Origin: a virus | Length of the DNA: 33,976 nucleotides | Strand: one strand, 5' to 3' | Virus record (IMG/VR): IMGVR_UViG_3300028844_004001 | Coordinates: 1 to 33,976 of that record | In this document: in pieces, positions 9,331 to 33,823 of the stretch | Layout: the number at the start of each line of letters is the position of its first letter | Numbering within the stretch: position 1 is the stretch's first letter | Notes under the pieces: generated by a model | Databases searched by the model: none | Seen by the model: the letters and a program-made list of their open reading frames with translations, nothing else | What the model was told of the DNA's origin: nothing | Made by a program: the position numbers and the translations under genes

Positions 9331-9535
9331 TTAAGTTTAACTATCATACTTAACTAAACTTAACTTAATTACTTTTTTACTCTCTTTTCTCTTGAAGTAA
9401 CATTGTTTTTATGTATTAGACAACAGAAAAGCCATTAAGTTCCCGTTAAGTTTCAATTATTTTATGTTTATTTTACATTAAGTTACATATTGTGGATAAG
9501 TCTGTGGATAAATCTGTGCTATTATCTGTGGATAA
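9331..9535. other. Probable replication origin: DnaA boxes plus TTAAGTT repeats
   Basis: Three exact DnaA boxes (TGTGGATAA, i.e. TTATCCACA on the other strand) lie at 9491-9499, 9503-9511 and 9527-9535, all in the same orientation. Just upstream are six copies of TTAAGTT: 9331, 9435, 9446 and 9478 forward, 9357 and 9362 reversed. The DNA is very AT-rich, suiting strand opening. DnaA boxes are known binding sites of the bacterial initiator; clusters with iteron-like repeats are typical of plasmid and some phage origins. Use as an origin is inferred. Confidence 0.6.
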
Positions 9536-9585
9536 CTTTTATGTGATTTAATTCAAATTAATTGCAAAAAAAGCTTGATTAGCAC

Positions 9586-9614
9586 TTGCCACCGCTTTTT
9601 AGTTGATATATTAT
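9586..9614 (+). promoter_or_regulatory. Sigma70-type promoter of AT-rich operon
   Basis: TTGCCA and TATTAT are separated by exactly 17 bp, close to the TTGACA/TATAAT consensus. The predicted start would be about 30 bases before the ATG at 9653. It drives the five-gene AT-rich operon that ends at a strong terminator near 12.55 kb. Confidence 0.6.
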
Positions 9615-9652
9615 GGCCACTCTTAAATAACAAACTTAAATGGGTATTAATT

Positions 9653-10675
9653 ATGACTAACTCAACCACTTCTACAAACGCACGTATTAACGCACGTATC
9701 AAAACGAATCTATTAAACGCACTAGTAACACACGACTTTTTAGTAAAGAGAGTAACCACCCTTGTCGACATGATCGACTGTACCGATACTAATAGATTCG
9801 GTATACATGATCTAAAACAGCAGGCTATTGAATTATTTATGACAAAAAAGAGAACATCAAGAGTGGTATATATACAGAGCGGTGCTGCTGTTGTATTCGC
9901 TTATACTGGGAGGCGCGAACGTGCGCTAGTGCAAGAGCAGACAACACTAATTCAAGTAGCTACTTATAATAATATTGATGATATGTTAACACTCGATTCG
10001 ATTAATATTGATAATGCAATAACAGTAGTGACAGCTATAAAAGACGCTTTTTACCTTAAAGCAAGAGCGTTAAAAAATGTTCACAATATTAGTATACAGT
10101 TACGTGATCATTTGAATAGTGATAACGTAAGACAAAAAGAAAACTATATCATTATCAATGATAATGTGAGTGTTAAACTAACAAGTAATCTATTAAAGTA
10201 TGATTTTAATAAAACGCATGTTACACAATATGAACTAATATTAAAAGATCACGATAATGCTATTATATATCTCGGTGAATTAGATTATATTAAAGATATG
10301 AATTTATTCGCTGAAACTTTGATAGAATATATAAAAGACTTATCTTTATTCAATAATTTAGCAGATAGATCACACATTAATAAAATTATTTCTAGCTTTG
10401 TTTTTATACAGTGCAAAAGCTTATCTATTAGAAAAGCATTCACTATTATTGATAAGAAAAGCATACATAATAAAAACATTATATCTCTATATCGTTATGC
10501 AAGATTAGAGAGTATATATAACAGCTTATCCGATATTATATGCGAAACATATTATACAAATAAAACGGATAGTCTATATAACAGTGTTTTAAATGCACGA
10601 GATAAAATACCAGCTTATCTATTAAAGAGAGCGACAAAAGCATATAAAGCAATATTCAATTACTCGTTAGTTTAA
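9653..10675 (+). CDS. Hypothetical 340-aa protein, first gene of AT-rich operon
   Basis: The frame opens at 9575, but that start would lie upstream of the predicted -10 box, so the ATG at 9653 (MTNSTTSTNARINARIKTN) is chosen. The product is hydrophilic, Asn/Ile/Lys-rich and largely helical, without membrane segments or Cys clusters. No family is recognised; its place beside DnaA boxes makes a replication or DNA-binding role possible but unproven. Codon use is strongly A/T-ending (TTA, ATA, AAT), unlike the packaging and replication genes, as for the next four genes. Confidence 0.7.
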   Translation: MTNSTTSTNARINARIKTNLLNALVTHDFLVKRVTTLVDMIDCTDTNRFGIHDLKQQAIELFMTKKRTSRVVYIQSGAAVVFAYTGRRERALVQEQTTLIQVATYNNIDDMLTLDSINIDNAITVVTAIKDAFYLKARALKNVHNISIQLRDHLNSDNVRQKENYIIINDNVSVKLTSNLLKYDFNKTHVTQYELILKDHDNAIIYLGELDYIKDMNLFAETLIEYIKDLSLFNNLADRSHINKIISSFVFIQCKSLSIRKAFTIIDKKSIHNKNIISLYRYARLESIYNSLSDIICETYYTNKTDSLYNSVLNARDKIPAYLLKRATKAYKAIFNYSLV

Positions 10676-10691
10676 ATAAAAGGTGCTCACA

Positions 10692-10913
10692 ATGAATACA
10701 GATAATAGAATTAATAATATACGTATTGGTGCAAGTTTGAAGAATAAAATGCTTAAGCTAAGACAAGAGCGTATTACCCGTATCTATGATTTAATGTTAG
10801 CGTTCTATGCTAAACAAAATTATGCTAGTGTAGTACTAGAAAATAAAATCAATAAACTAAATGTTGCTTATGATAAAGCAATGAAATTGACCGTTAATAA
10901 AAAAGGTGTTTAA
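10692..10913 (+). CDS. Hypothetical 73-aa basic protein
   Basis: An upstream GTG exists at 10683, but it overlaps the AAAGGTG ribosome site; the ATG at 10692 has ideal spacing. The product is helical and basic (GASLKNKMLKLRQERITRIY), possibly DNA- or RNA-binding. No family is recognised. It lies 16 bases after its neighbour and 3 bases before the next gene, so it is part of the same operon. Confidence 0.65.
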   Translation: MNTDNRINNIRIGASLKNKMLKLRQERITRIYDLMLAFYAKQNYASVVLENKINKLNVAYDKAMKLTVNKKGV

Positions 10914-10916
10914 GAA

Positions 10917-11540
10917 ATGAATATATTAAATAATGATAATGTTGTTATCACTGGCTCTCATATCGCTGGCTTATTAGATGAAAAGGCAATGCTTAATTAT
11001 AAGCATAAAGTATCACGTATAACAAGCGAGATAATCCACGCTATACAAAAGCAGTTAGTTGAGGACACACGTAAAATCAATCGACTTGATGTTAGCACTA
11101 ACGATAAGCGAGTATTAAAAAACAATGCTGTTATAACTGCCAACATTAAAAAATCCAATGCTTTAAGTTTTAAGAAAAATATATTAGAGCAATCTTTTAA
11201 TAGTAAACAATTATTGCAATTGAATACCTATTATACATATGCTTTTGATTATGATTTAAGAGGCGGTGCAATAGATCATAAGCTGGCAATTAAAAAGGTT
11301 GGATTTGATAACAGCGACAAGATAAAAGCTTTTGATAAGTTTATAGCGGACAATATAAACGTATTAAATGAAGGTATAAACCACTATACATTGAAGAATG
11401 TTTTTAATTTGTTTAAGTATTATGCGAATAACAGCGGATTAGTATTAATAGATCAAACGCTAAAAAATACTAAGCTAAATTATTTAGCAGATAAAAAGAT
11501 TATCAGTGATTTAAATACTAATAACTACGACGAGGTGTGA
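10917..11540 (+). CDS. Hypothetical 207-aa protein
   Basis: The third gene of the AT-rich operon, with ribosome site AAAAAAGGTG inside the end of the previous gene. The product is hydrophilic and Lys/Asn-rich. A notable segment is YAFDYDLRGGAIDHKLAIKK near residue 110-130; the fifth gene of the operon has a loosely similar NLKGGALDKAESK, so the two may be distantly related. No family is recognised. Confidence 0.65.
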   Translation: MNILNNDNVVITGSHIAGLLDEKAMLNYKHKVSRITSEIIHAIQKQLVEDTRKINRLDVSTNDKRVLKNNAVITANIKKSNALSFKKNILEQSFNSKQLLQLNTYYTYAFDYDLRGGAIDHKLAIKKVGFDNSDKIKAFDKFIADNINVLNEGINHYTLKNVFNLFKYYANNSGLVLIDQTLKNTKLNYLADKKIISDLNTNNYDEV

Positions 11541-11544
11541 GCAA

Positions 11545-11745
11545 ATGAAAACGATTAAAACAGTACTGGTTGTCCTACTATTTGTTATTATTAACACTGC
11601 TAATATATATTATATTAGTTTACTAAATGATTTGTTTATTAATGTGACTAATAAACATTATTACATAGTAGCTATTGCGAGTACTATATTTTATATAGCG
11701 TTGTTAGTTACTATTAAACTATTAAAAGATATTAAAAAAGGATAA
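11545..11745 (+). CDS. Small two-helix membrane protein (66 aa)
   Basis: There are two hydrophobic helices, about residues 5-25 (VLVVLLFVIINTANIYYI) and 40-60 (YYIVAIASTIFYIALLVTI), joined by a short loop. Lys-rich ends (MKTIK at the start, KLLKDIKKG at the end) predict both termini inside. The GAGGTG ribosome site overlaps the stop of the previous gene. Candidate roles are inner-membrane exclusion or holin-like function, but nothing identifies one. A tiny membrane protein in an orphan operon beside the origin is notable. Confidence 0.68.
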   Translation: MKTIKTVLVVLLFVIINTANIYYISLLNDLFINVTNKHYYIVAIASTIFYIALLVTIKLLKDIKKG

Positions 11746-11753
11746 AAAACATT

Positions 11754-12494
11754 ATGAATATATTAGATATTATTATCTCTCGTTTACCTGCTGGCTATTA
11801 CGACTTTGAACGTCACTTCACTAATTTAAAAGGTGGTGCATTAGATAAAGCAGAATCTAAAATAGTATTAAAAGGTTATAAAGATTTATGCGCTAAGCAT
11901 CAATTAGTATTTTTAAATAATAGAATTAAGCCACTAATGTTAACGGGTAGTAGTTTAAATTTATATAGTAAGTTTAGCGGTTCTTTTAATGCTTTTAATA
12001 AAGCAGTATTCCTTAATGCACCGAAGGGATTTAAGCCTAAGTATAAAAAATACTTATTTGAAGTGTGGAATGTTGCAATAAAAAACCAACGTTTTAAAAA
12101 CGAGGATCTTGGGGCATGGTCTAAATTATCACCAATGCAATTAAAGGAAAAATTATTACATAGTGCTACCAGTAATAAAAAAACGGGTAAATTTATAAGT
12201 GACTATCATACTTTTCACTTTAATAAAGAAGTTAAACAAGTTAATAAGATGTTTAGTTATGGCGAAATAAGCCAAAGCAAGCGAGATGAATTAATAAAAC
12301 AATTAGAACATAAACGTTTATTATTAATTGATCATATTAAAAACGAGACACACACAACATTGAATAGAATAAACGCGGGTTCGTTTGTAAGCTTATTAGA
12401 TAATGCGAATGATTATCATTTTGAAATAACGGCTAGTCGTAATCTAACAGCAGCACCAACTAAACAGCGTCACAGTATTGATGGTTACAAATAA
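11754..12494 (+). CDS. Hypothetical 246-aa protein, last gene of AT-rich operon
   Basis: An AAAGGATAA site precedes the ATG. The protein is basic, Lys/Asn/Leu-rich and mostly helical, with NLKGGALDKAESKIVLKGY near residue 25-45 echoing the GGAIDHK segment of the third gene. Its C-terminus ends in RHSIDGYK. No membrane segment, metal motif or nucleotide-binding loop is visible, and no family is recognised. A strong terminator follows 30 bases after the stop, closing the operon. Confidence 0.68.
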   Translation: MNILDIIISRLPAGYYDFERHFTNLKGGALDKAESKIVLKGYKDLCAKHQLVFLNNRIKPLMLTGSSLNLYSKFSGSFNAFNKAVFLNAPKGFKPKYKKYLFEVWNVAIKNQRFKNEDLGAWSKLSPMQLKEKLLHSATSNKKTGKFISDYHTFHFNKEVKQVNKMFSYGEISQSKRDELIKQLEHKRLLLIDHIKNETHTTLNRINAGSFVSLLDNANDYHFEITASRNLTAAPTKQRHSIDGYK

Positions 12495-12525
12495 CTAGAA
12501 CCACCACACACACCGCCCACCACAG

Positions 12526-12556
12526 CCGCTATTGCTCCCAGCTTAGCGGTTTTTTT
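12526..12556 (+). terminator. Intrinsic terminator of AT-rich operon
   Basis: The stem CCGCTA (12526-12531) pairs with TAGCGG (12544-12549), followed directly by seven T. This is a textbook Rho-independent terminator 30 bases after the last gene of the AT-rich operon. Confidence 0.85.
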
Positions 12557-12859
12557 GTGTCTGCTATATAGTGACGCTATCCCTTGCCAGCGCTGGCTAT
12601 AGCTGGCACCACACGAACCACCACACCACCACACTATTCTATATCCTTATACACTATTATATAGCTATATAGCTGTATCATATGCTATGGCTTTATATAA
12701 GCCATTCTAACAGCTTTTAATATAAACCTATACAATCATCAGGGGATGAATTTTAAAACGCTTATACGGCCTTACATGAGGCCGTAAACAGTCACACACT
12801 AAACAATAGTACTAATAGTAGATAGTAATAATTAATTCACTTTTATTTTACTTTAGGTA
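12557..12859. other. Non-coding spacer with palindromes
   Basis: No gene is seen. It contains an inverted repeat TGCCAGC/GCTGGCA near 12584-12608, a GGCTTTATATAAGCC hairpin near 12689, and an ACGGCCT/AGGCCGT hairpin near 12767. These lie between the terminator of the AT-rich operon and the tandem promoter array. They could be operators or RNA hairpins; no further role is visible. Confidence 0.4.
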
Positions 12860-12887
12860 TAGACACTGTTAAAAAAATGTATATACT
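12860..12887 (+). promoter_or_regulatory. Tandem early promoter 1
   Basis: TAGACA, a 16-bp spacer and TATACT. The flanks TTTAGGTA (upstream) and AGGCG (downstream) match those of promoter 2 and, in part, promoter 3, so the three form an array of related units about 155-160 bp apart. Confidence 0.65.
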
Positions 12888-13012
12888 AGGCGCACCAATT
12901 GAGGAAAATATCAGTTTTATTTTATCGGTTGGTAGCCTAGCTTGTTTTATTAGGTTGTTGGTTGCTTAGGTAACAGCGTTGAAAATTGTTTAATCTTTTT
13001 TAACATTACCTA

Positions 13013-13040
13013 TTGACACCGCCAACCACTACTATATACT
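13013..13040 (+). promoter_or_regulatory. Tandem early promoter 2
   Basis: TTGACA (perfect), a 16-bp spacer and TATACT, followed by AGGCGAATCAATTAAGG, which parallels AGGCGCACCAATTGAGG after promoter 1. A TTTAATCTTTTTT tract precedes it, as it does promoter 3. Confidence 0.75.
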
Positions 13041-13174
13041 AGGCGAATCAATTAAGGGATTTAGTTTAACTTGTTTCTTGATTGGTTGGTTGTTGTCATA
13101 CGTACCTAATGTATGATTAATAATTGTAGATAAAACGGTTTAATCTTTTTTCTACTTTTATTTAACATTAGGTA

Positions 13175-13202
13175 TTGACTTGATTATAGAATGCTTTATA
13201 CT
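13175..13202 (+). promoter_or_regulatory. Tandem early promoter 3
   Basis: TTGACT, a 16-bp spacer and TATACT. The upstream ACATTAGGTA resembles ACATTACCTA of promoter 2. It is the last promoter before the hairpin-rich non-coding stretch, whose RNA would start near 13208. Confidence 0.75.
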
Positions 13203-13207
13203 CGCAT

Positions 13208-13755
13208 CTTATATTCAAAAGCTTAACCGCTTAGCAATATAAAGTTTTTTCTGGCACTTGCTACTGTTCGCACTAGCAAGGCCGCATCTGGTAATAAAAC
13301 ACTTTATGTTTACATAACATATAACTAGTAGTTATCGCCACTCGTTATCAAGCTTTAAACACTTGATTCGATGCACTAGGGAATAATGCGCCCAGTCGTG
13401 AACACACGCACCGTCACACCTTGTGATATACGTTTTAATATGTTACTAGTATTTTGTTATCTAAAATATTAGTGATTGGTATCGTATACTGAAATGAAAA
13501 GGAACGGTTAATTATTAAAAGGGATTAAACAACCTGCGCCTAATAAGCGCGAATGCTCTGGAACGGTCGATCAAAGTATAGTAACATTTATATTTTGTGG
13601 GGATGGAGTGCCTATAGCACGGCACTAGGCTTGTTACGTTTGGGAGTGAGTTAAACCAAATAGCGGGGATTATATTTATATAGTTTCATCTATGGGAATA
13701 AGGCATATATACAACAGAACACCACTAGCTTTATAGTTAGGTGGTGTTTTCTGCG
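13208..13755 (+). ncRNA. Candidate ~550-nt structured non-coding RNA
   Basis: There is no credible reading frame between tandem promoter 3 and an intrinsic terminator. Hairpins occur throughout: TTATATT/AATATAA near 13210-13240, CTTGCTA/TAGCAAG near 13257-13279, ATAACT/AGTTAT near 13320-13335, and AGTGCC/GGCACT near 13607-13626, with GGAACGG repeated at about 13500 and 13560. Promoter, folded body and terminator together make an independent RNA likely. The sequence does not match a tRNA, 6S or tmRNA pattern that I can recognise. It might instead be an untranslated leader with attenuation for the gene at 13830. Confidence 0.5.
13718..13752 (+). terminator. Intrinsic terminator after the ncRNA candidate
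   Basis: AACACCAC (13718-13725) pairs with GTGGTGTT (13741-13748), extended by TA/TA with one bulged G. Four T span 13747-13750. It separates the promoter array and RNA from the downstream gene; read-through would be needed if the array drives the early genes. Confidence 0.65.
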
Positions 13756-13756
13756 T

Positions 13757-14166
13757 CTATCTGTTTTTATAAATAGGTATGCTTAAAATAAATGTAGAAT
13801 ATCTTTACATAAATTTTGGAGTAAACCTTATGAATACAGTACAAGAAAGACAAACAAGTAAACAAAATATGATATTAGAAAACATGATCCAGAATATAAT
13901 GGTTGATGTTTCCGAGGTCATACCAGCACTACCTAAGCAAGCAGCCAACGACACTAACATCATCGTATACTATGATGATACTGGTATCGTATGGCATAAC
14001 TATGGCGATACTCTACAAACCTTCGAAGATTATAACGAGGCCGTAGAACAATTGCGAGACGACTATGGTTATGATATTACAATAACCTTAGTCTTAAACA
14101 ACAACGCACCATCACAGGTTAAAATTTGATCTGTACTATAGCATACCTATCTATAAAAGCAGGTAG
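13757..14166 (+). repeat. 27-nt complementary arms flanking a gene
   Basis: The left arm 13757-13783 can pair with the right arm 14140-14166 over 27 nt. In RNA this gives 24 Watson-Crick pairs, two U.G wobbles (13760/14163, 13764/14159) and one A.C mismatch (13772/14151). The arms share the core ATAGGTATGCT and enclose the 99-aa gene at 13830. A stem of this length could be an RNase III processing site or close the mRNA into a loop. Confidence 0.65.
13830..14129 (+). CDS. Hypothetical 99-aa acidic protein, first early gene
   Basis: The frame is open from 13779, but TTGGAG at ideal distance selects the ATG at 13830 (MNTVQERQTSKQ). The product is acidic, with a likely mixed alpha/beta C-terminal half: NIIVYYDDTGIVWHNYGD, then a helix FEDYNEAVEQLRDDYG, then strand DITITLVLN. 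No family is recognised. It is the first gene of the rightward region and is enclosed by the 27-nt complementary arms. An early host-modifying role is plausible by position only. Confidence 0.68.
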   Translation: MNTVQERQTSKQNMILENMIQNIMVDVSEVIPALPKQAANDTNIIVYYDDTGIVWHNYGDTLQTFEDYNEAVEQLRDDYGYDITITLVLNNNAPSQVKI

Positions 14167-17641: not shown

Positions 17642-20004
17642 TGCCAGCTGTACAGCAAAAGTCTTCATTCAATCAAGGGTTCCCAGCATCGATAGGTCAA
17701 GTGCTGTCGTTCCCTTCGAAGCAATTCCCCCGGCCAAGTACCGAGGCGGATAGTAAGCATAGTCAAAAGGCTGTGCTTAACGTAGGTCGTAAGCTTTCTA
17801 AGCGTCAGCTTAAGAAGGCAATGCTTGCCAACAACAATGCCAAGGGTGCAGTAGCTCCTAAGGTAACTGTCAGCAACAAGAAGAAGCAGAAGAAGAATAA
17901 GCAACAGGAAGTTAAAGCTAAGGTCAACCCAATACCTCAGCAACCTGTAGCTACTACTACTGCTACACTCGAGCCGACAGTCACTCGTAAGTTTGATCGA
18001 GCAGCTTATGAAGTTAAGTTGGCAGCAGCTAAAGCCCGTCTAGCTAGCACTAAAGCTATGCGTGGTAAGGTTACTAGAGTCATAAGTAACCAAGGTCCAA
18101 GCACCTCACAAGACTTGGTAACTGTGCAGCTTAAAGACATGCGAGTAAAATCACCAACTTATAAACAGATGGTGGACGTTGTCTTTAATGAAGCATACCA
18201 AGAAGAAGTATTCTTGGAACGTAAGATTTACCCATCAACGAACATTGCCTCTGGTAGTGGTAAGTTTGGTTGGATGGTAGAGTCTAACGGATTCGGCGGT
18301 AAGAAGGAATCTTATGTCGAAGTAGCAACAATTGAATCGATTCAAGCAGCAAAAGTAAAATGTAATGTAACTAGAAACACCAGCGCATTGGTCAGATCTA
18401 TTGGTAATGTAGACTACTCTCTAGCTTCCCGTATGGAAAGCCGTGAAATTGAGCAGTTGGAAACCTTTGATGATGTACCTTGGGCTAACCCTACCCTGGT
18501 TGATCAAGGGCAGGTTGACGATATCGTTGTCACAGTACCAACTGTAAGTGCAGAAGATGCAGCTAAATTAGATGCAGATAAAACTCTTGCAGCGTTAAAC
18601 TCAATGGAAATAAAAAACCTTGAGCGTCTAAGTAATGAAGTTGAAGTAGACCCTGCGGATTTAACCGTAGTAGCTAAACTTACTGGCAAGTTAAGCGATG
18701 AAGAGTTAGCTGGTATTTATACCTGTACTCTCATTGAAGCACGTGAATTAACCGACGAGCAACTAGATATTATGTTGCAAGAAGGTAGCGATGACAGTGC
18801 TTATGCCTGTCTTGCAGAACTAAATCGTCGTGAAGACGATAGGTTAGAGTTAAGTAAAACATTAGCAGCTAAGGCAGCAGATCTTGTAGAAAAGAATGCA
18901 GCCATCAAGAAAGCATCTAGTGAAGCAGCGTTGAAAGTTTCTAATATTATTAGTAACCGTAAACCATACCCAGCAATGCGTACTACTAATTCAGAGCGCT
19001 TGTTGTCGATACACCATGACAATGGTAGTCACAAAGATAAACGTACTGCTCTTGCTTACATCAAGCAGGAACTAGCGGATGAAGTAATCACAACAACAAC
19101 TGAAGAAGTTAAGTCAGTTGCAACAGTCCCTGATGTTAAAGCATCACCTGTTAAAAAGAAAACAGCGACAGTAGCTTCGCCTTTAAGCCACAAGTTTGGG
19201 GGTCATGAAACGAAACGGTTAATGTCTGTCACTGAGTTAGTTGATAAATCTCTTGAAGCTTTATGGTCACAAGAGTTAGTTGAAAGTGCTTGGCGGGTAA
19301 CTGCTGATCACTCTGAAGCACTGACAATGTTTCGTAATGTTCCACCGAAAGCTATGGATAAGTTCAAAGCGTTCGTAGGTAAACTAAACCCATTCACCTC
19401 AAGCAATGTATCGTTTGACACTGAAGAAAGTTTAGAGAAAACACTAGGCTCTATGGAAGTATTCCACCCATCTACTGACGGCAGTGCCAGTGAAGAACAA
19501 CTTGGGTTAGAGCGTTGGTTATCCCTTCGAGCTAATGAAGTAGGGGCTAGTCCTCTATCACCAATTGAAAGTGTACATCAAGTAGCTATTGTTTCTCGTA
19601 TTAACAAAGCACTGAACAACAATCGTCGACGTGAGTTATTGTTAACACACGAACTGTGTGGTGTCGACATTGAAGCTGCACCTAAGGTTAACACTGAAGT
19701 GTATGCTGTAGGTACTGTGTTGCAAGAGCGGTTGACTAAGCCAGTCAAACGTCCACCAGTATCGTTAGAAAAAGTTAAACCAGCTGCACCCATTGCAGTT
19801 GAGCCATTGGCAAACAGTAGCCTTAGCTATACCAAGGTGGCTGATATGTTAGACTTGCGGGGCGAACGTGCTGCACAAGAGCAAGTCGTATGGCGGCAGA
19901 AGTTAGGTAATGCTTTCAAGAGCAAGTCTCTTGATAAGGTGTCTGAGTTATTCAAGGAGCATAAGTTAAGTGCTTCGGGGATCTTGGTGCCCGCCTTCTG
20001 CTAA
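17635..20004 (+). CDS. Large orphan early protein, 789 aa
   Basis: This is the largest early gene. The N-terminus (1-150) is very basic and disordered (KKKQKKNKQQEVK near 82), suggesting nucleic-acid contact. Residues about 155-260 look like a folded beta-rich domain (VTRVISNQGP ... IASGSGKFGWMVESNGFGGK). The centre (300-470) is acidic and helical, and the C-terminal half has helices separated by Pro/Val/Lys linkers. No enzyme motif is visible. The length and modular make-up suggest a multi-domain scaffold or a protein carried in virions, but it is not in the structural operon. Function unknown. Confidence 0.75.
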   Translation: MVVPAVQQKSSFNQGFPASIGQVLSFPSKQFPRPSTEADSKHSQKAVLNVGRKLSKRQLKKAMLANNNAKGAVAPKVTVSNKKKQKKNKQQEVKAKVNPIPQQPVATTTATLEPTVTRKFDRAAYEVKLAAAKARLASTKAMRGKVTRVISNQGPSTSQDLVTVQLKDMRVKSPTYKQMVDVVFNEAYQEEVFLERKIYPSTNIASGSGKFGWMVESNGFGGKKESYVEVATIESIQAAKVKCNVTRNTSALVRSIGNVDYSLASRMESREIEQLETFDDVPWANPTLVDQGQVDDIVVTVPTVSAEDAAKLDADKTLAALNSMEIKNLERLSNEVEVDPADLTVVAKLTGKLSDEELAGIYTCTLIEARELTDEQLDIMLQEGSDDSAYACLAELNRREDDRLELSKTLAAKAADLVEKNAAIKKASSEAALKVSNIISNRKPYPAMRTTNSERLLSIHHDNGSHKDKRTALAYIKQELADEVITTTTEEVKSVATVPDVKASPVKKKTATVASPLSHKFGGHETKRLMSVTELVDKSLEALWSQELVESAWRVTADHSEALTMFRNVPPKAMDKFKAFVGKLNPFTSSNVSFDTEESLEKTLGSMEVFHPSTDGSASEEQLGLERWLSLRANEVGASPLSPIESVHQVAIVSRINKALNNNRRRELLLTHELCGVDIEAAPKVNTEVYAVGTVLQERLTKPVKRPPVSLEKVKPAAPIAVEPLANSSLSYTKVADMLDLRGERAAQEQVVWRQKLGNAFKSKSLDKVSELFKEHKLSASGILVPAFC

Positions 20005-20106
20005 GGCACTGTGTGGTAGTGCATAACATTATACCACTACCGCACATGTACCCTGATATAAGGTACTAAAATTATATCAACTGTAGCAGAGTAACACCGT
20101 GTCATT

Positions 20107-20123
20107 GAAGGTTGGATTCCTTC
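20107..20123 (+). other. T-arm-like hairpin A (variant)
   Basis: GAAGG, a 7-nt loop TTGGATT, CCTTC. The stem is perfect, but the loop differs from the tRNA T-loop consensus TTCRANY at the C. No acceptor partner is found. The weakest of the three. Confidence 0.3.
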
Positions 20124-20627
20124 TCCCCGCTATATACCAAGAGCATGATCACGATATAGCATAGAGTATCGCAGCGGTACATTGTAAGAGAGACACAGGA
20201 CTACGTGAGAGGATATCATCTCATGCTAAGTAACCTGACCATCATACTCCTTATGTACCAATGCGACTCAGAATGAAGTGATCTAGGTGCTGGGCTTGCT
20301 ATAGGTGACACACACACAATTGTAAGACTGAAAGCTGCCAAAGACTGTGGTAAATCTAAGATAATGTAAACACCAAAGGTACATAGATGCTCTTTACTGT
20401 TAGGATGCCTTTCATTAGGGTAGACTTTCGCATAGGAAACGCTTGAATAAAACAAACAATATAGTAGTACACAGTTGCCTGAGTCAAGAGGCACACGGCT
20501 TGACAAGAGGACTCATCCTCCTCAGCATAACGGCTCCCTATCAGATCGTAACTCTGATGCGAAAGCGGCTAGAAAATTTGAGGATTAGTTATGCACAAGA
20601 GTTCCGTACCAACTTACTGGAGTATAT

Positions 20628-20644
20628 GCAGGTTCGAATCCTGC
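20628..20644 (+). other. T-arm-like hairpin B
   Basis: GCAGG, loop TTCGAAT, CCTGC: an exact match to the tRNA T-arm consensus. The 3' flank continues CAAGGGCC as an acceptor strand would; GGCTC at 20532-20536 could pair with GGGCC at 20649-20653. No D-arm plus anticodon arm of normal spacing is found, so it is tRNA-like, not a called tRNA. Confidence 0.5.
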
Positions 20645-21071
20645 CAAGGGCCTTACAACCCCATGCTTATAGGCAAGTAACTCACCCAATAAAGGTAAGC
20701 CCTGGATCTTGAAACGACCCTAACGGAACCGCACTGTTGTAAGAAACTCTAGTGGATACTAAAAAGTTTCTTTGAAGATGGGCTACATTCCCAATCCTTC
20801 CAGAGGGCTATAACATCTGGCAGTATTGAAACACTGTATAAGTATGAGTACTTATAAACTTGAGGATGCGAAGTATAATAAGCAAACCTAGTCTACAGGT
20901 ACTGTGTAGAATAAGCTGGAAGTTAATCAGCGGCCTCCAGATAAGGGGTGATACCATAGTAATATCGTCAAGTCTTATTGAAAGATAAGAGGAAGTCTCG
21001 TTATGTCGATGAGGAGAGGGGTGTACTATGGTAGGTAATACAATATGCAACAACGGTTTGAAGTACTGGGG

Positions 21072-21242
21072 GTTGTCCCTGCTCACTATAAAATGTAGTG
21101 GTTGAGTAGTCGGTGAAGTTCGATGCAACATAATACTTACTGAGAGTGTGTCTTGATCTTAGTCCAATGAGGATTGAACGATGGGATACGGGTTGCCACT
21201 GATGAAGGAAAGGTATTGTAGGTTCGAGTCCTACCGGACAAC
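21072..21242 (+). ncRNA. Possible tRNA-like domain (T-arm C with acceptor-like stem)
   Basis: GTTGTCC (21072-21078) is fully complementary to GGACAAC (21236-21242). Just inside the 3' strand lies a T-arm, GTAGG-TTCGAGT-CCTAC (21218-21234), matching the consensus. Near the 5' strand is a 5-bp stem with 7-nt loop (CACTA/TAGTG, 21084-21100). The enclosed RNA is 171 nt, about twice a tRNA. The layout recalls tRNA-like domains that close longer RNAs, such as tmRNA, but D-arm and anticodon arm are not convincing. Confidence 0.4.
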
Positions 21243-21473
21243 GCAGAGGAAGGGTGATAGTACCATAGGGATTGGTCAATCTAATGTCGCTTAGCTCCAC
21301 AGGAAGTCGTCGAGTCCCGATATAAATGAATCGACACAAACGTAAAGAAGAGTAGTATTGCTCATGCTAGTAGTAGGTAGCAGAAGATGCACTAACATCA
21401 AGGTCAGGGTGCTGTCATGTATCTAACTATTGACCTTGATGATCTAACTAATTATTACGAAGGTGTGTACATT

Positions 21474-21956
21474 ATGAGAATTCGTTACGTAAAAACAAAT
21501 GGAGAAGGTCTGATCAAGCAAGTCAAAGGCTTGTTATACTACCGCAATGTTCACTTTCTTACATCAGATGTTCGTAAGTCTGAGGAGAAGATGAATGCTT
21601 TAGTAACAGAGTTTATCCGAGAGTATGAGAAAAGAGAACATCACCTACAAGTTGTAGAGGATGCAAAGAAAGCAATCAAGAATAGTCCAAGCGCTTTGTT
21701 AAACACTTCTGAAGATACCACTGAGACACTAGGGTTCTTCAAGTGGCTGAAGACTTTCCATTTCCACCGCCTCTATCCTAAACAGGATAATCTTTGGGAG
21801 CCTGTAGCTAAAGTGCTAAAGACTTCTAAGAGTGTCAAGGCTTCAGTGATCGATGCTAAGCCAAGCGTTACAGTTGTTGCGACACAGTCTCTTGTTCCTA
21901 GAACAATGAACAGTAATCGTAACAACAAGAACAACCGTAACAATCAACACAACTAA
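21474..21956 (+). CDS. Hypothetical 160-aa basic protein
   Basis: An in-frame ATG at 21417 also has an AGGGTG upstream, but AAGGTGTGTACATT before 21474 matches the ribosome-site style of other genes here and gives the N-terminus MRIRYVKTNGEG. The product is basic; the middle is helical and charged (EEKMNALVTEFIREYEKREH), and the end is an Asn/Arg tail (NSNRNNKNNRNNQHN) suggesting RNA or DNA contact. No family is recognised. Confidence 0.62.
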   Translation: MRIRYVKTNGEGLIKQVKGLLYYRNVHFLTSDVRKSEEKMNALVTEFIREYEKREHHLQVVEDAKKAIKNSPSALLNTSEDTTETLGFFKWLKTFHFHRLYPKQDNLWEPVAKVLKTSKSVKASVIDAKPSVTVVATQSLVPRTMNSNRNNKNNRNNQHN

Positions 21957-22111
21957 TACAAGACTCATATAGTTTTGTGTTACGTATCAACAAACAGTAT
22001 GTGTAGTTAACAATCACAATCCATCTCAAGACAATATGCCTGTTGCCAAGTCTTATGTGTCTATGTAATCAGTTGGGTGTAAGTGTTTGTGGTTCTGTGT
22101 ATTGCACATGC

Positions 22112-22173
22112 TTGTTTGTTTTCTAGATAGACTTAGGTATGTGAATGTCTAGGTGTATCTACAAAACAAACAA
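22112..22173 (+). promoter_or_regulatory. 18-bp hairpin before a ribosome site
   Basis: The left arm 22112-22129 and right arm 22156-22173 pair over 18 positions with one C.C mismatch, enclosing a 26-nt loop. The arms are T/G-rich and A/C-rich. It ends 7 bases before the TTAGGAGAT ribosome site of the following gene and could affect translation or be an RNase III site. Confidence 0.6.
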
Positions 22174-22195
22174 ACATATCTTAGGAGATATACAA

Positions 22196-25441: not shown

Positions 25442-25759
25442 TGGTAGGTGCAGCTGTGGTGAGTAGTATATCTATTCTTTGTAAGCTCACCATCTGAATG
25501 TAAGACACCTTAAGCTATGTAGTAAGTAAGTGTAAAGGTAATACCCCATAGCAATCGCTAAGAGCAACATGGCTTACAACCTAGAGACAACTTAGGCACT
25601 GAGAGTTATGGAAGTAGGAGGTTAGTCTTAAGCTTGAGACTAAGTAACTTATAGGTACACAGGATCATGCAGTCAGTCCAACACTGTGTGGTATTATAGC
25701 CTTCTATAGTAAAGCAATGCAACCACAACTAACCAAAACTAACCTTAGGAAATAGTAAC
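25442..25759 (+). other. Non-coding intergenic stretch
   Basis: No gene is seen in about 320 bases. A TTAGTCT/AGACTAA hairpin lies near 25624-25645, and GTGAG/CTCAC can pair near 25459-25490. The composition resembles the other structured gaps of the early region. Nothing more specific is visible. Confidence 0.4.
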
Positions 25760-31152: not shown

Positions 31153-32615
31153 CACTAAGAGAAAGATTGTAATGGACATGGAGGCCAACAATCTATACCC
31201 AGCAGTTACAGTACTTCATTGTGCTGTAGCTACTGACCTAGTCACCAGTGAATCTTTCCAGTTTAGACCTGAGCAAATGATCAACGGAGAGTTCACTGAC
31301 TTCCTGGATAGTTGTGATTTCATAGCATGCCATAATGGTATTGGCTTTGACTTCCCAGCTATCGAGAAAGTCCTTGGGTGGAAACCAACTGACCCTTCTT
31401 ACCTGTTCGATACCCTAGTCTTTTCACGGACACTTAGTCCTGACAGACTCCCTCCCTTTGGTGCCAGATTCCCACACAGTGTTGAGTCTTGGGGCCGTAG
31501 GTTTGGTATCAAGAAACCTGAGTACGAACAGTGGGAAACTTACGACGAAGAAATGATGCATCGTTGTTCAGAAGATACACGTATCCAGACCATGATGTTT
31601 AAAGTCTTGTGTCAAGAAGCTGGATTCGATATCAAGCATATAGATCCTCGTAACCCTGATGGCTACCGTAAAGGTGAACCTAACTGGGCAGAGAGTCTAT
31701 ACAACGAACACAGATCTAGTACAATAATGTTTGCTCAAGAGATGAACGGATGTTCTTTTGATTTTGAAAGAGCACTTGAGTTTATAAAAACATTGAACGA
31801 TTTCTCAGATGAGAAGTCAGAGTACATACTACGTAACATACCAATATCATACAAACAGTATGGTGTCAGTGTCTCAGCCCCATTTAAGATGAATGGAGAT
31901 TATAAGAAGATGACAACAGATTGGTACGAGGATGAGGTACACCTAGTTGGTGGCCCATTCAGTCGTATCCAAGAGTGTATTCTTAATCTCAACTCAGCTA
32001 AGCAATTAAAGGATTGGCTGTATACAGTAGGATGGGTACCTGATGAATGGAACTACAAGAAAAATAAAGCTGGTAAGCTTGAGAAAGATGAAGATGGTAA
32101 TCTAATAAAGACATCACCCAAGATAACACAGTCAAGTCTTGATAGGATAGACGGTCATCTAGGTGAGTGTATTAGTTTACGTAACAAAGCTAACCACAAA
32201 CGGAATCAGTTACAAGGATTCTGTGATCGTACTAACAAACAAACACTCCGGATACCAGCAGGTGCTAACCCACAAGGTACACCAACTGCCCGGATGAAAC
32301 ACCGTAACGTAGCTAACGTACCTAAGGCAAGTTCTTTTGAGAATAAGAAAGATAAGAATGACCCACGTAATGGTAGCTTGTTATGGTTCCCTGAAAAGCA
32401 AGATCCCTTCTTCGGTACTGAGATGCGGTCAGTCTTCAAGGCTGCGGACAATAAAGTACTGGTTGGTCGAGATGCAGCTGGCTTAGAGTTCAGATGCTTT
32501 GCTCACTATGTCGGTGATGAAGAGCTTATCGATGTAATACTTAACCAAGATATACACACATACAATCAGCTTAAAGCTGGCCTACCTACCCGATCTATTG
32601 CAAAGACATTCATCT
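31139..32615 (+). CDS. DNA polymerase family A, exon 1
   Basis: This exon gives the 3'-5' exonuclease and the first part of the polymerase domain. Exo I is MDMEANN (Asp13, Glu15), Exo II HNGIGFDFPA (Asp71), Exo III CSEDTRIQ (Asp146). Motif A is GRDAAGLEFRCFAHY with Asp445. The exon stops in motif B after AKTFI plus the first base of the next codon. Reading on gives nine more codons and a stop at 32644, so unspliced RNA would make a truncated protein. Joined to exon 2 it encodes about 666 aa, near T7 gp5 (704). Confidence 0.93.
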
Positions 32616-33299
32616 TAACAAATGCTAGGATGACTTGGGTGTAAGCCCTCGACTAAAACCCATTGAATTCAGGGGAAGTCTAGAACAGACAATCCTGAGC
32701 TAAGCAAGGAATCTATACCATATGTATCTCATCGATCATAATAAATTAAAAAAGGACCAAATTAAAGATCCATCACGTTGGCCTCAAGGTAAGTTCAAAA
32801 AGAAACCTTGTCGTAACTGTGGTGATATCTTTCAACCACACAGTCCTTCTGAACTTTATTGTGACGATAAGTGTAAGTCTGATGGAATAACCACAGCATA
32901 TCTATTAAGAACATACGGTATAACATTAATCGATTACAAAAACATGATAGAAGAGCAGGAAGGTCTTTGTAAGATCTGCCGAACGGAAGGATGGACAATG
33001 GCCAAACACCACAAGATTAAACTTGTAGTAGATCATTGTCACGCTTCTGGGAAAGTAAGAGGACTTCTTTGTCATAACTGTAACCGTGCTCTTGGCCTAC
33101 TTAAAGATAATGAAGATTATTTAGAAAGGGCTAAGGATTACTTGAAAGTGCAACGACTATCCGAAAGGAGTACACCTAAGCAGGTGGAAGCGGTGGGCCC
33201 CCAGTAATGGGGTGATGATATAGTCTACTCTATATGGGGACATATAGCAGTTCGTAAGAGAACGAGGTGAGTGGTTGCGTACTCATCTGAATATAAAGG
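32616..33299 (+). ncRNA. Group I intron in DNA polymerase gene
   Basis: The exon joint is fixed by protein sequence: T at 32615 plus AT at 33300-33301 makes a Tyr codon, giving AKTFIYAFLFGAG as in T7 polymerase. The 5' exon ends in U and the intron ends in G, as group I introns require. P1 is visible: exon TCATCT (32610-32615) pairs with GGATGA (32628-32633) with the final U.G. GCATT in exon 2 can pair with AATGC at 32621-32625 as P10. Core-like ACAATCCTGAGCTAAGC precedes the internal gene, and GATATAGTCTACTC follows it. Confidence 0.9.
32722..33207 (+). CDS. HNH homing endonuclease, endonuclease VII-like
   Basis: This 161-aa gene lies inside the intron. An N-terminal zinc finger-like part has PCRNCG and CDDKC. 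The catalytic His-Me finger has GLCKICRTE, then VVDHCHASGKVRGLLC and HNCNRALGLLKD, the hallmark of the T4 endonuclease VII-like family often found as free-standing or intron homing enzymes. It would cut intronless alleles of the polymerase gene and so spread the intron. The ribosome site is weak, consistent with limited expression. Confidence 0.9.
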   Translation: MYLIDHNKLKKDQIKDPSRWPQGKFKKKPCRNCGDIFQPHSPSELYCDDKCKSDGITTAYLLRTYGITLIDYKNMIEEQEGLCKICRTEGWTMAKHHKIKLVVDHCHASGKVRGLLCHNCNRALGLLKDNEDYLERAKDYLKVQRLSERSTPKQVEAVGPQ

Positions 33300-33823
33300 A
33301 TGCATTCCTGTTCGGTGCTGGTAATAAGAAGCTTGGTTCTATTGTAATGCCAAACGGTACAGAAGAACAACAGAAAGCTGCTGGTGCTGCTGCTAAGGAG
33401 AACTTCCTTAAAGCTATACCTAAACTAGAACAACTCATTAAGCAAGTACAGAAAGCCAGTAAGCGTGGTTGGTTACGAGGTCTTGATGGTCGTTGTATGT
33501 TTATGCGTAAAGGTGAGGATGGTCGTATCCAAGCTAACAAAGCACTTAACGTACTATGTCAAGGAGCTGGTGCTGTCATCATGACCCGTGCTAGAATCTG
33601 GGTATGGGATGAGATAGAGAAGCGTGGCTGGATAGATAGTGGTAAAGCTATTAAAGTTCTTGATTACCACGATGAAGAAACATGGGAATGTGATGCTGAT
33701 ATTGCGGAACAAGTAGCAGATTTACTTGTCCAAAGTATAGTGGAAGCAGGACTACATTTCAATCTTAAGATACCACTGGATGCTGAAGCACAGATAGGGC
33801 AGACATGGGCTGAGATACATTAA
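33300..33823 (+). CDS. DNA polymerase family A, exon 2
   Basis: Translation continues the split Tyr codon: AFLFGAGNKKLGSIV completes motif B (O helix), GWLRGLDGRCMFMRK matches the conserved region of T7 polymerase, and DYHDEETWECDAD is motif C with the catalytic His-Asp-Glu. The end, AQIGQTWAEIH, closely parallels the C-terminus of T7 polymerase. An in-frame start-like codon upstream of the exon is within the intron and is not used in this interpretation. Confidence 0.93.

Follow-up and report, generated by a model that had tools for sequence, protein, structure and literature searches.

The window, a 33,976-base phage record from IMG/VR, encodes a terminase large subunit, an SU10-type portal, and a T7-type primase/helicase, and among deposited phages the closest primase is that of PQ867844.1 (53.6%), which is filed under Zobellviridae. 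Its early genes lie on the + strand and its late genes on the - strand, and upstream of the early genes are three tandem sigma-70-like promoters, their frequency being not above that in shuffles. Positions 20005-21473 (+) constitute a gene-free block, whose borders were set by the stop of a 789-aa open reading frame (ORF) at 20004 and by the conserved start of the next gene, ATG 21474, which is residue 20 of the mechanically called ORF 21417-21956. Here, the start codon is preceded by AAGGTGTGTACATT, with a counterpart, AAGGTGTGTATATC, standing before the ATG of the same gene in a relative (L005). Protein family searches with the ORFs flanking the block gave no match, and no notable promoter or terminator was found inside or beside it.

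Several other regions of the window were noted in passing. A second long gene-free stretch (12495-13778, 1.28 kb) includes promoter-like sites, and another (25442-25759) contains a hairpin around TTAAGCTTG that is common to the window and L005, with stems (TTAGTC/GACTAA vs TTAGCC/GGCTAG) compared by eye and with the structural signal absent in a shuffle test. Positions 9500-12500 form an island of 26-30% G+C in a genome of about 40% G+C, perhaps an acquired one, in which three larger ORFs (366, 207, and 246 aa) have no Pfam or PHROGs match. Moreover, an insertion at 32612-33300, with an endonuclease VII-type HNH ORF (32722-33207), splits the DNA polymerase gene; it is missing from L005 and present in another relative (L006), where Rfam calls a group I intron. 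At 22108-22177 there is an intergenic 70-bp imperfect palindrome, 77% self-complementary.

The original prediction had described a 1.47-kb gene-free stretch at 20005-21473, and this was confirmed by the ORF borders and by a tblastx comparison with L005. Between 20004 and 21474 we found no gene-like ORF, and a coding frame conserved in relatives, which had been named beforehand as an observation that would speak against an RNA, was not seen in that comparison (no frame in common before about 21350). A protein-coding region, whether read by recoding or from the - strand, accordingly has next to no probability in our estimation: open frames of 89-112 aa do exist, including ORFs of 107 and 112 aa on the - strand, but stops interrupt all + frames and none is shared with L005 across the block.

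The stretch had also been described as packed with hairpins. While the stems named for this do exist (a 9-bp stem, 20952-20960/21025-21033, enclosing a 6-bp hairpin, and the 8-bp hairpin with a TGAG loop), neither stem number nor folding energy rises above shuffles or coding controls. In fact, the minimum free energy gave z scores of -1.1 (+) and -1.0 (-), and the five stems of at least 8 bp compare with 3.2 +- 1.3 in shuffles and with 4 and 6 in coding controls, so that both measures, being at chance level, were rejected as evidence for an RNA. Two features of the single sequence are conspicuous, namely two exact T-arm matches and 12-bp hairpins at both ends of the block. The T-arm motif GGTTCRANYCC occurs twice in the window against 0.07 expected, a count of two being reached in 0 of 100 shuffles. 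Three T-arm-like hairpins had been predicted, and all three are present (starts at 20107, 20628, and 21218, spaced by 521 and 590), though a canonical T-loop is found only in the last two. Separately, a 40-base element at the 3' edge (21377-21415) recurs as an inverted copy elsewhere in the same phage (L004:18720-18759, 85% identity), perhaps as a shared terminator or processing signal. The features of the locus are collected in Table 1.

Table 1. Coordinates of features in and around the gene-free block and of its positional counterparts in relatives (window positions unless a contig is named).
Feature	Position	Strand	Evidence
Gene-free block, candidate large noncoding RNA	20005..21473	+	ORF map; tblastx; syntenic L005:1723-3165
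Three tandem sigma-70-like promoters (12860-12887, 13013-13040, 13175-13202) upstream of early genes	12860..13202	+	Promoter scan
12-bp hairpin at 5' edge, TGTGTGGTAGTG/CACTACCGCACA, candidate boundary/processing element	20010..20046	+	Not clearly conserved in L005
T-arm-like hairpin 1, non-canonical loop TTGGATT	20107..20123	+	Not conserved in L005
Conserved domain, stem GCATAAC/GTTATGC (L005 TCACAAC/GTTGTGA)	20525..20594	+	z -4.4; helix comparison
Inner hairpin of this domain, CAGA/TCTG (L005 CATA/TATG)	20542-20556	+	
Invariant GATGCGAAAGC with GAAA tetraloop	within 20525..20594	+	
Canonical T-arm hairpin GCAGG-TTCGAAT-CCTGC (L005 GTGGG-TTCGATC-CCCAT)	20628..20644	+	Motif search; helix comparison
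Stem after T-arm, GGGC.CTTAC/GTAAGCCC, one bulge (L005 CATTAC/GTAGTG)	20648..20702	+	
Hairpin AGAAACT/AGTTTCT (L005 GTACATT/AGTGTAT), rewritten stem, invariant 16-nt loop CTAGTGGATACTAAAA	20742..20771	+	z -4.0
Covarying hairpin GATGGG/CCCAATC with bulge (L005 TCTAGG/CCTAGA)	20777..20796	+	
Covarying hairpin CCAGA/TCTGG (L005 GTCTG/CAGTC)	20800..20820	+	4 double changes, 1 mismatch
8-bp hairpin, TGAG loop; aligned L005 site TAGCT-TGCG-AGCTA	20837..20856	+	
9-bp stem around hairpin 20974-20989	20952..21033	+	Inner hairpin matched in L005
tRNA-like domain, 7-bp acceptor-like stem GTTGTCC/GGACAAC (L005 TTGATAC/GTATCAA), enlarged middle	21072..21242	+	Predicted folds; helix comparison
D-like hairpin of tRNA-like domain	21084-21100	+	
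Canonical T-arm of tRNA-like domain	21218-21234	+	
12-bp hairpin at 3' edge, CATCAAGGTCAG/TTGACCTTGATG	21396..21441	+	Same-place stems in L010 (11 bp) and L023 (8 bp)
Conserved ribosome-binding site and start AAGGTGTGTACATTATG of downstream 160-aa protein	21460..21476	+	Sequence; repeated in L005
Gene-free blocks of 742-870 nt	L010:8015-8872 (= PQ867844.1 37279-38136); L023:3886-4755; L028:3934-4675		Same gene order
Gene-free block of 979 nt, looser counterpart	L019:4708-5686		Same gene order

In a near-identical strain (L003/L004), the block is 100% identical. More distantly, L005, the primase of which is 73% identical to that of the window, has a 1443-nt gene-free block whose flanking genes are homologous to those of the window's block, one aligning at 28.9% over 225 aa (E 9e-11) and the other at 38.8% over 147 aa (E 1e-30). 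The two blocks have sequence islands in common, with 74% identity over 77 and 68 bases, and align poorly in the middle and the 5' third. Here, we noticed that at least eight helices have rewritten stems in which the pairing is kept, with G-U among the conserved pairs, though for the 9-bp stem 20952-20960/21025-21033 no L005 counterpart was found. Between the window and L005 there are two double changes in the seven pairs of helix 20525-20531/20588-20594, two double and two single changes in 20742-20748/20765-20771, four double changes with one mismatch in 20800-20804/20816-20820, and two double changes in the T-arm at 20628-20644; these counts are not a blind test, since the helices were picked by eye and then counted, and the covariation amounts to one comparison, as two sequences of this 1.4-kb type were found. 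An exhaustive stem matching of the two blocks with loose mapping proved too noisy to use (118 matches vs 71-111 at wrong offsets). DNA pattern searches for further members matched only contigs already known, and a genome scan with the primase profile returned only distant relatives.

When RNAalifold was set against column shuffles of the window/L005 alignment, segments 20521-20595 (z -4.4) and 20731-20837 (z -4.0) stood out, with 0 of 200 shuffles each, values to be read beside a primase coding control averaging -0.2, diverged coding controls reaching -3.8 and -4.1 once each, and a - strand that scores about as well as the + strand in both segments. The segments S2, S4, and S5 were not significant.

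Relatives of a second type, found by a primase profile search, have the same gene order, with a gene-free block of about 0.8 kb lying between a ~600-aa ORF and a ~160-aa ORF (L010, L023, and L028). Here, the + strand was clearly preferred, the RNAalifold shuffle z scores for L010 and L023 being -8.1, -8.2, and -5.0 (+) vs -3.2, -3.3, and -2.1 (-). Stems here are fully rewritten, among them GGTAGGTTGG/CCAACCTACC vs CTGTACTG/CAGTACAG, and CTGCA/TGCAG vs CTGTG/CACAG and CTGAG/CTCAG, and a loop, CGTAAGGAA, is invariant on three different stems. Helices kept by compensatory change are thus found in L010 and L023, and partly in L028, which is also matched by a covariance model built from the other two (E 1e-8); the same model did not match the window, L005, L019, or Vibrio phage CHOED. 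These observations bear on whether the block is instead a DNA-level element with inverted repeats, such as a replication origin or a packaging region. Inverted repeats act in DNA too, and the 40-base element at 21377-21415 has its reverse match elsewhere in the same phage, but G-U among the conserved pairs and the far better + strand in the 0.8-kb type argue for pairing in RNA and make this explanation hardly likely.

Between the 1.4-kb and 0.8-kb types there is no significant similarity (profile alignment z 0.7; covariance models do not cross), and profile and covariance-model searches did not link the 1.4-kb type to L019 or CHOED either. The downstream proteins of both types do align (hhalign E 2e-4), whereas the upstream proteins do not. 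Given that the sequence links are absent while gene order and the downstream protein are shared, we treat the two types as positional counterparts and not as a proven single family, though possibly they are one rapidly changing RNA. A unified alignment of both, in which the order of motifs (TGAAACA, then TAAGG) looked suggestive by eye, was set aside in light of the same z score and uncrossed models. In CHOED (KJ192399.2 44219-45711; L117:3460-4952), a gene-free block of 1.49 kb, which is not annotated, contains one T-arm, AAATTAT spacers, and two repeated motifs, and the protein encoded downstream resembles the window's 160-aa protein at its N-terminus (by eye). With a similar position and one T-arm, and without significant similarity, this block was rejected as a homolog; CHOED is possibly an isolate with a host, but offers a positional counterpart only.

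The earlier remark on T-arms turned out to be a good lead, as canonical T-arms account for two of the three hairpins, one of them lying within a tRNA-like 3' domain. The seven nucleotides that follow this second T-arm have a perfect upstream complement in the window (21072-21078/21236-21242, with a 1-nt spacer) and in L005 (2820-2826/2919-2925), and four of the seven pairs of this acceptor-like stem are double-changed between the two. By simple counting over the positions searched, the chance of a perfect 7-mer partner is about 4% per sequence and about 0.2% for both. A canonical T-loop T-arm adjoins a 7-bp acceptor-like stem, as in a tRNA (21218-21242 with 21072-21078), and no CCA is encoded after it. 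Folded alone, each sequence is predicted to form a multi-branch domain closing around the D-like hairpin and the T-arm; L005 has a predicted stem with a 7-nt loop at the position of the anticodon arm, and the middle is enlarged in the window. Taken by themselves, the two domains have unexceptional folding energies (z -1.7 and -1.4). No tRNA was found in the window by ARAGORN or with RF00005, also at a permissive threshold. When ARAGORN was allowed introns of up to 1.5 kb, its candidates for long-intron tRNAs were discarded as not credible because many low-scoring ones appeared on both strands and in unrelated places too.

Among the relatives, T-arms are found in the first gene-free block of L023 and L019, as well as in a second gene-free block, and are missing from the first block of L010 and L028. 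This second block (L010:11359-12121; L023:7665-8395; L028:7402-8156), with structural z scores down to -5.3 and -7.5, contains a tRNA-like element carried by an extended helix, GTTAGTCGGGG../..CCCCGACCAAC, with a normal-looking T-arm and, in L010 and L023, an extra hairpin, CCCGTCGGCATATGCGGCGGG, in the anticodon domain. Moreover, tRNA genes recognized by RF00005 have abnormal anticodon loops in L019 (7085-7154 and 7162-7230; 5 or 6 nt) and L028 (1503-1575; 8 or more), and are possibly decoys or non-decoding tRNAs. In L006 (3719-4000), a tRNA-Trp-like body shows a split or interrupted tRNA-like arrangement, its 5' strand ACCTGT pairing with ACAGGT after a second T-arm ~210 nt downstream and not with the sequence that follows its own T-arm. 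The primase of L028 is also split, into ORFs 9998-11053 and 11815-12558, the intervening 11054-11814 being probably another intron. Could the block then be the remains of a decayed tRNA gene cluster? The canonical T-arms and the odd anticodon loops of the tRNA-like genes in the relatives' second block would fit this, but compensatory rewriting of the helices in the tRNA-like domain is not expected from decay, most of the conserved islands are not tRNA-derived, and no tRNA match appears even at a permissive threshold, so that we assign decay a very low probability.

As to known RNA families, none in Rfam 15 reaches threshold in the block (GOLLD, ROOL, OLE, tRNA, tmRNA, and the group I intron RF00028), though RF00028 does detect an intron in L006, and tmRNA was found neither with Rfam nor with ARAGORN. 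The original suggestion of GOLLD or ROOL finds no covariance-model match, these two being unlisted even at E up to 10, and the accompanying remark that such RNAs often lie near tRNAs does not literally apply, with no tRNA island of the ROOL type seen in the window (a fragment) or in L005. A highly diverged GOLLD or ROOL member, forming an RNA-only multimeric cage, would share with the block a phage origin, a comparable size range (over 800 nt in GOLLD members; PMC12286853), GNRA-type and T-loop-type modules, and an association with tRNA-like sequence; even so, the failure of both models at gathering score and beyond, and the missing tRNA island, leave this explanation quite improbable.

The broader idea of a large structured phage RNA fares better, being backed by the conserved position, the islands without a reading frame, and the rewritten helices that still pair. 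Judged from these comparisons, a conserved structured RNA very probably exists in the block, and we consider it likely that it is a large structured noncoding RNA gene on the + strand, read together with the early genes in a Zobellviridae-like podovirus. Alternatively, the block might be cis-acting, as a structured leader or processing region of great length that governs stability and translation for the early mRNA and for the 160-aa gene, without yielding a product of its own. Its place inside one operon, where it lacks a strong promoter or terminator, and a hairpin just upstream of the conserved ribosome-binding site, are in keeping with this. However, 1.4 kb of sequence, an internal tRNA-like domain, and conserved loops and islands distant from both flanking genes go well beyond the needs of a leader, and the position stays constant while the length differs twofold between types; we thus view a purely cis-acting role as improbable.

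For the noncoding RNA gene, the best reading of the sequences is a new family in a rare clade of Zobellviridae-like phages, unusual in its tRNA-like domain and in a position kept despite sequence turnover. The block would be transcribed as part of a long early RNA starting at host-type promoters near 13 kb, and might then be excised by host enzymes, either an RNase III-type activity cutting at the edge hairpins or RNase P acting at the tRNA-like domain. The released RNA could fold compactly into several domains via T-loop and GNRA-type contacts, and whether it acts in trans seems to us an even bet. If so, tRNA-elbow mimics might be presented to host factors of tRNA handling or translation; judging from the retained T-loops, the RNA may use the elbow that many host tRNA partners recognize, yet we regard this mechanism as doubtful, and an RNA-only assembly as described for GOLLD and ROOL (PMC12286853) would also be within reach. 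In a bolder reading, which we consider less likely than not, the RNA would belong to a new giant phage RNA class that is built with tRNA-elbow modules and stays at one position across the clade despite nearly complete turnover of its sequence; early in infection it would capture host factors that handle tRNA, be it RNase P, tRNA-modifying enzymes, EF-Tu, or the ribosome. The further tRNA-like RNAs with abnormal anticodon arms in relatives may reflect the same strategy. As the RNA lies among the early genes of short-tailed phages, of which one is deposited (PQ867844.1), it may be testable in infection.

To our knowledge, phage RNAs that are both very large and structured are few, and what GOLLD and ROOL do is still an open question. 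Our literature search combining Zobellviridae with noncoding RNA, incomplete in coverage, found nothing. GOLLD, a large multi-domain RNA of phages and prophages that sometimes has tRNAs in a linker (PMC12286853), resembles the block in being a large multi-domain phage RNA, and differs in its covariance model, which the block does not match, in its genomic context, and in the non-canonical tRNA-like domain that the block has near its 3' end. ROOL, likewise a large structured RNA of phages and prophages, has a model that the block also fails to match and a nearby tRNA island that the block lacks; the ROOL studied by cryo-EM is 659 nt, with the block about twice that. GOLLD and ROOL both form RNA-only assemblies (PMC12286853). 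With tmRNA, unmatched here by ARAGORN and Rfam and set apart by the CCA not encoded after the acceptor-like stem, the block shares the linkage of a tRNA-like domain to a larger structured RNA. In mascRNA and menRNA of MALAT1 and MEN-beta, the tRNA-like domain serves RNase P processing of a long RNA (PMC11693755); these are eukaryotic, with no evidence of homology to the block and with RNase P cleavage of the block only proposed, but they do show the same module of acceptor and T-arm on a long noncoding RNA. Set beside these systems, a further large-RNA family, one that has tRNA-like domains and comes from a different group of phages, would provide a second line of attack on the role of such RNAs.
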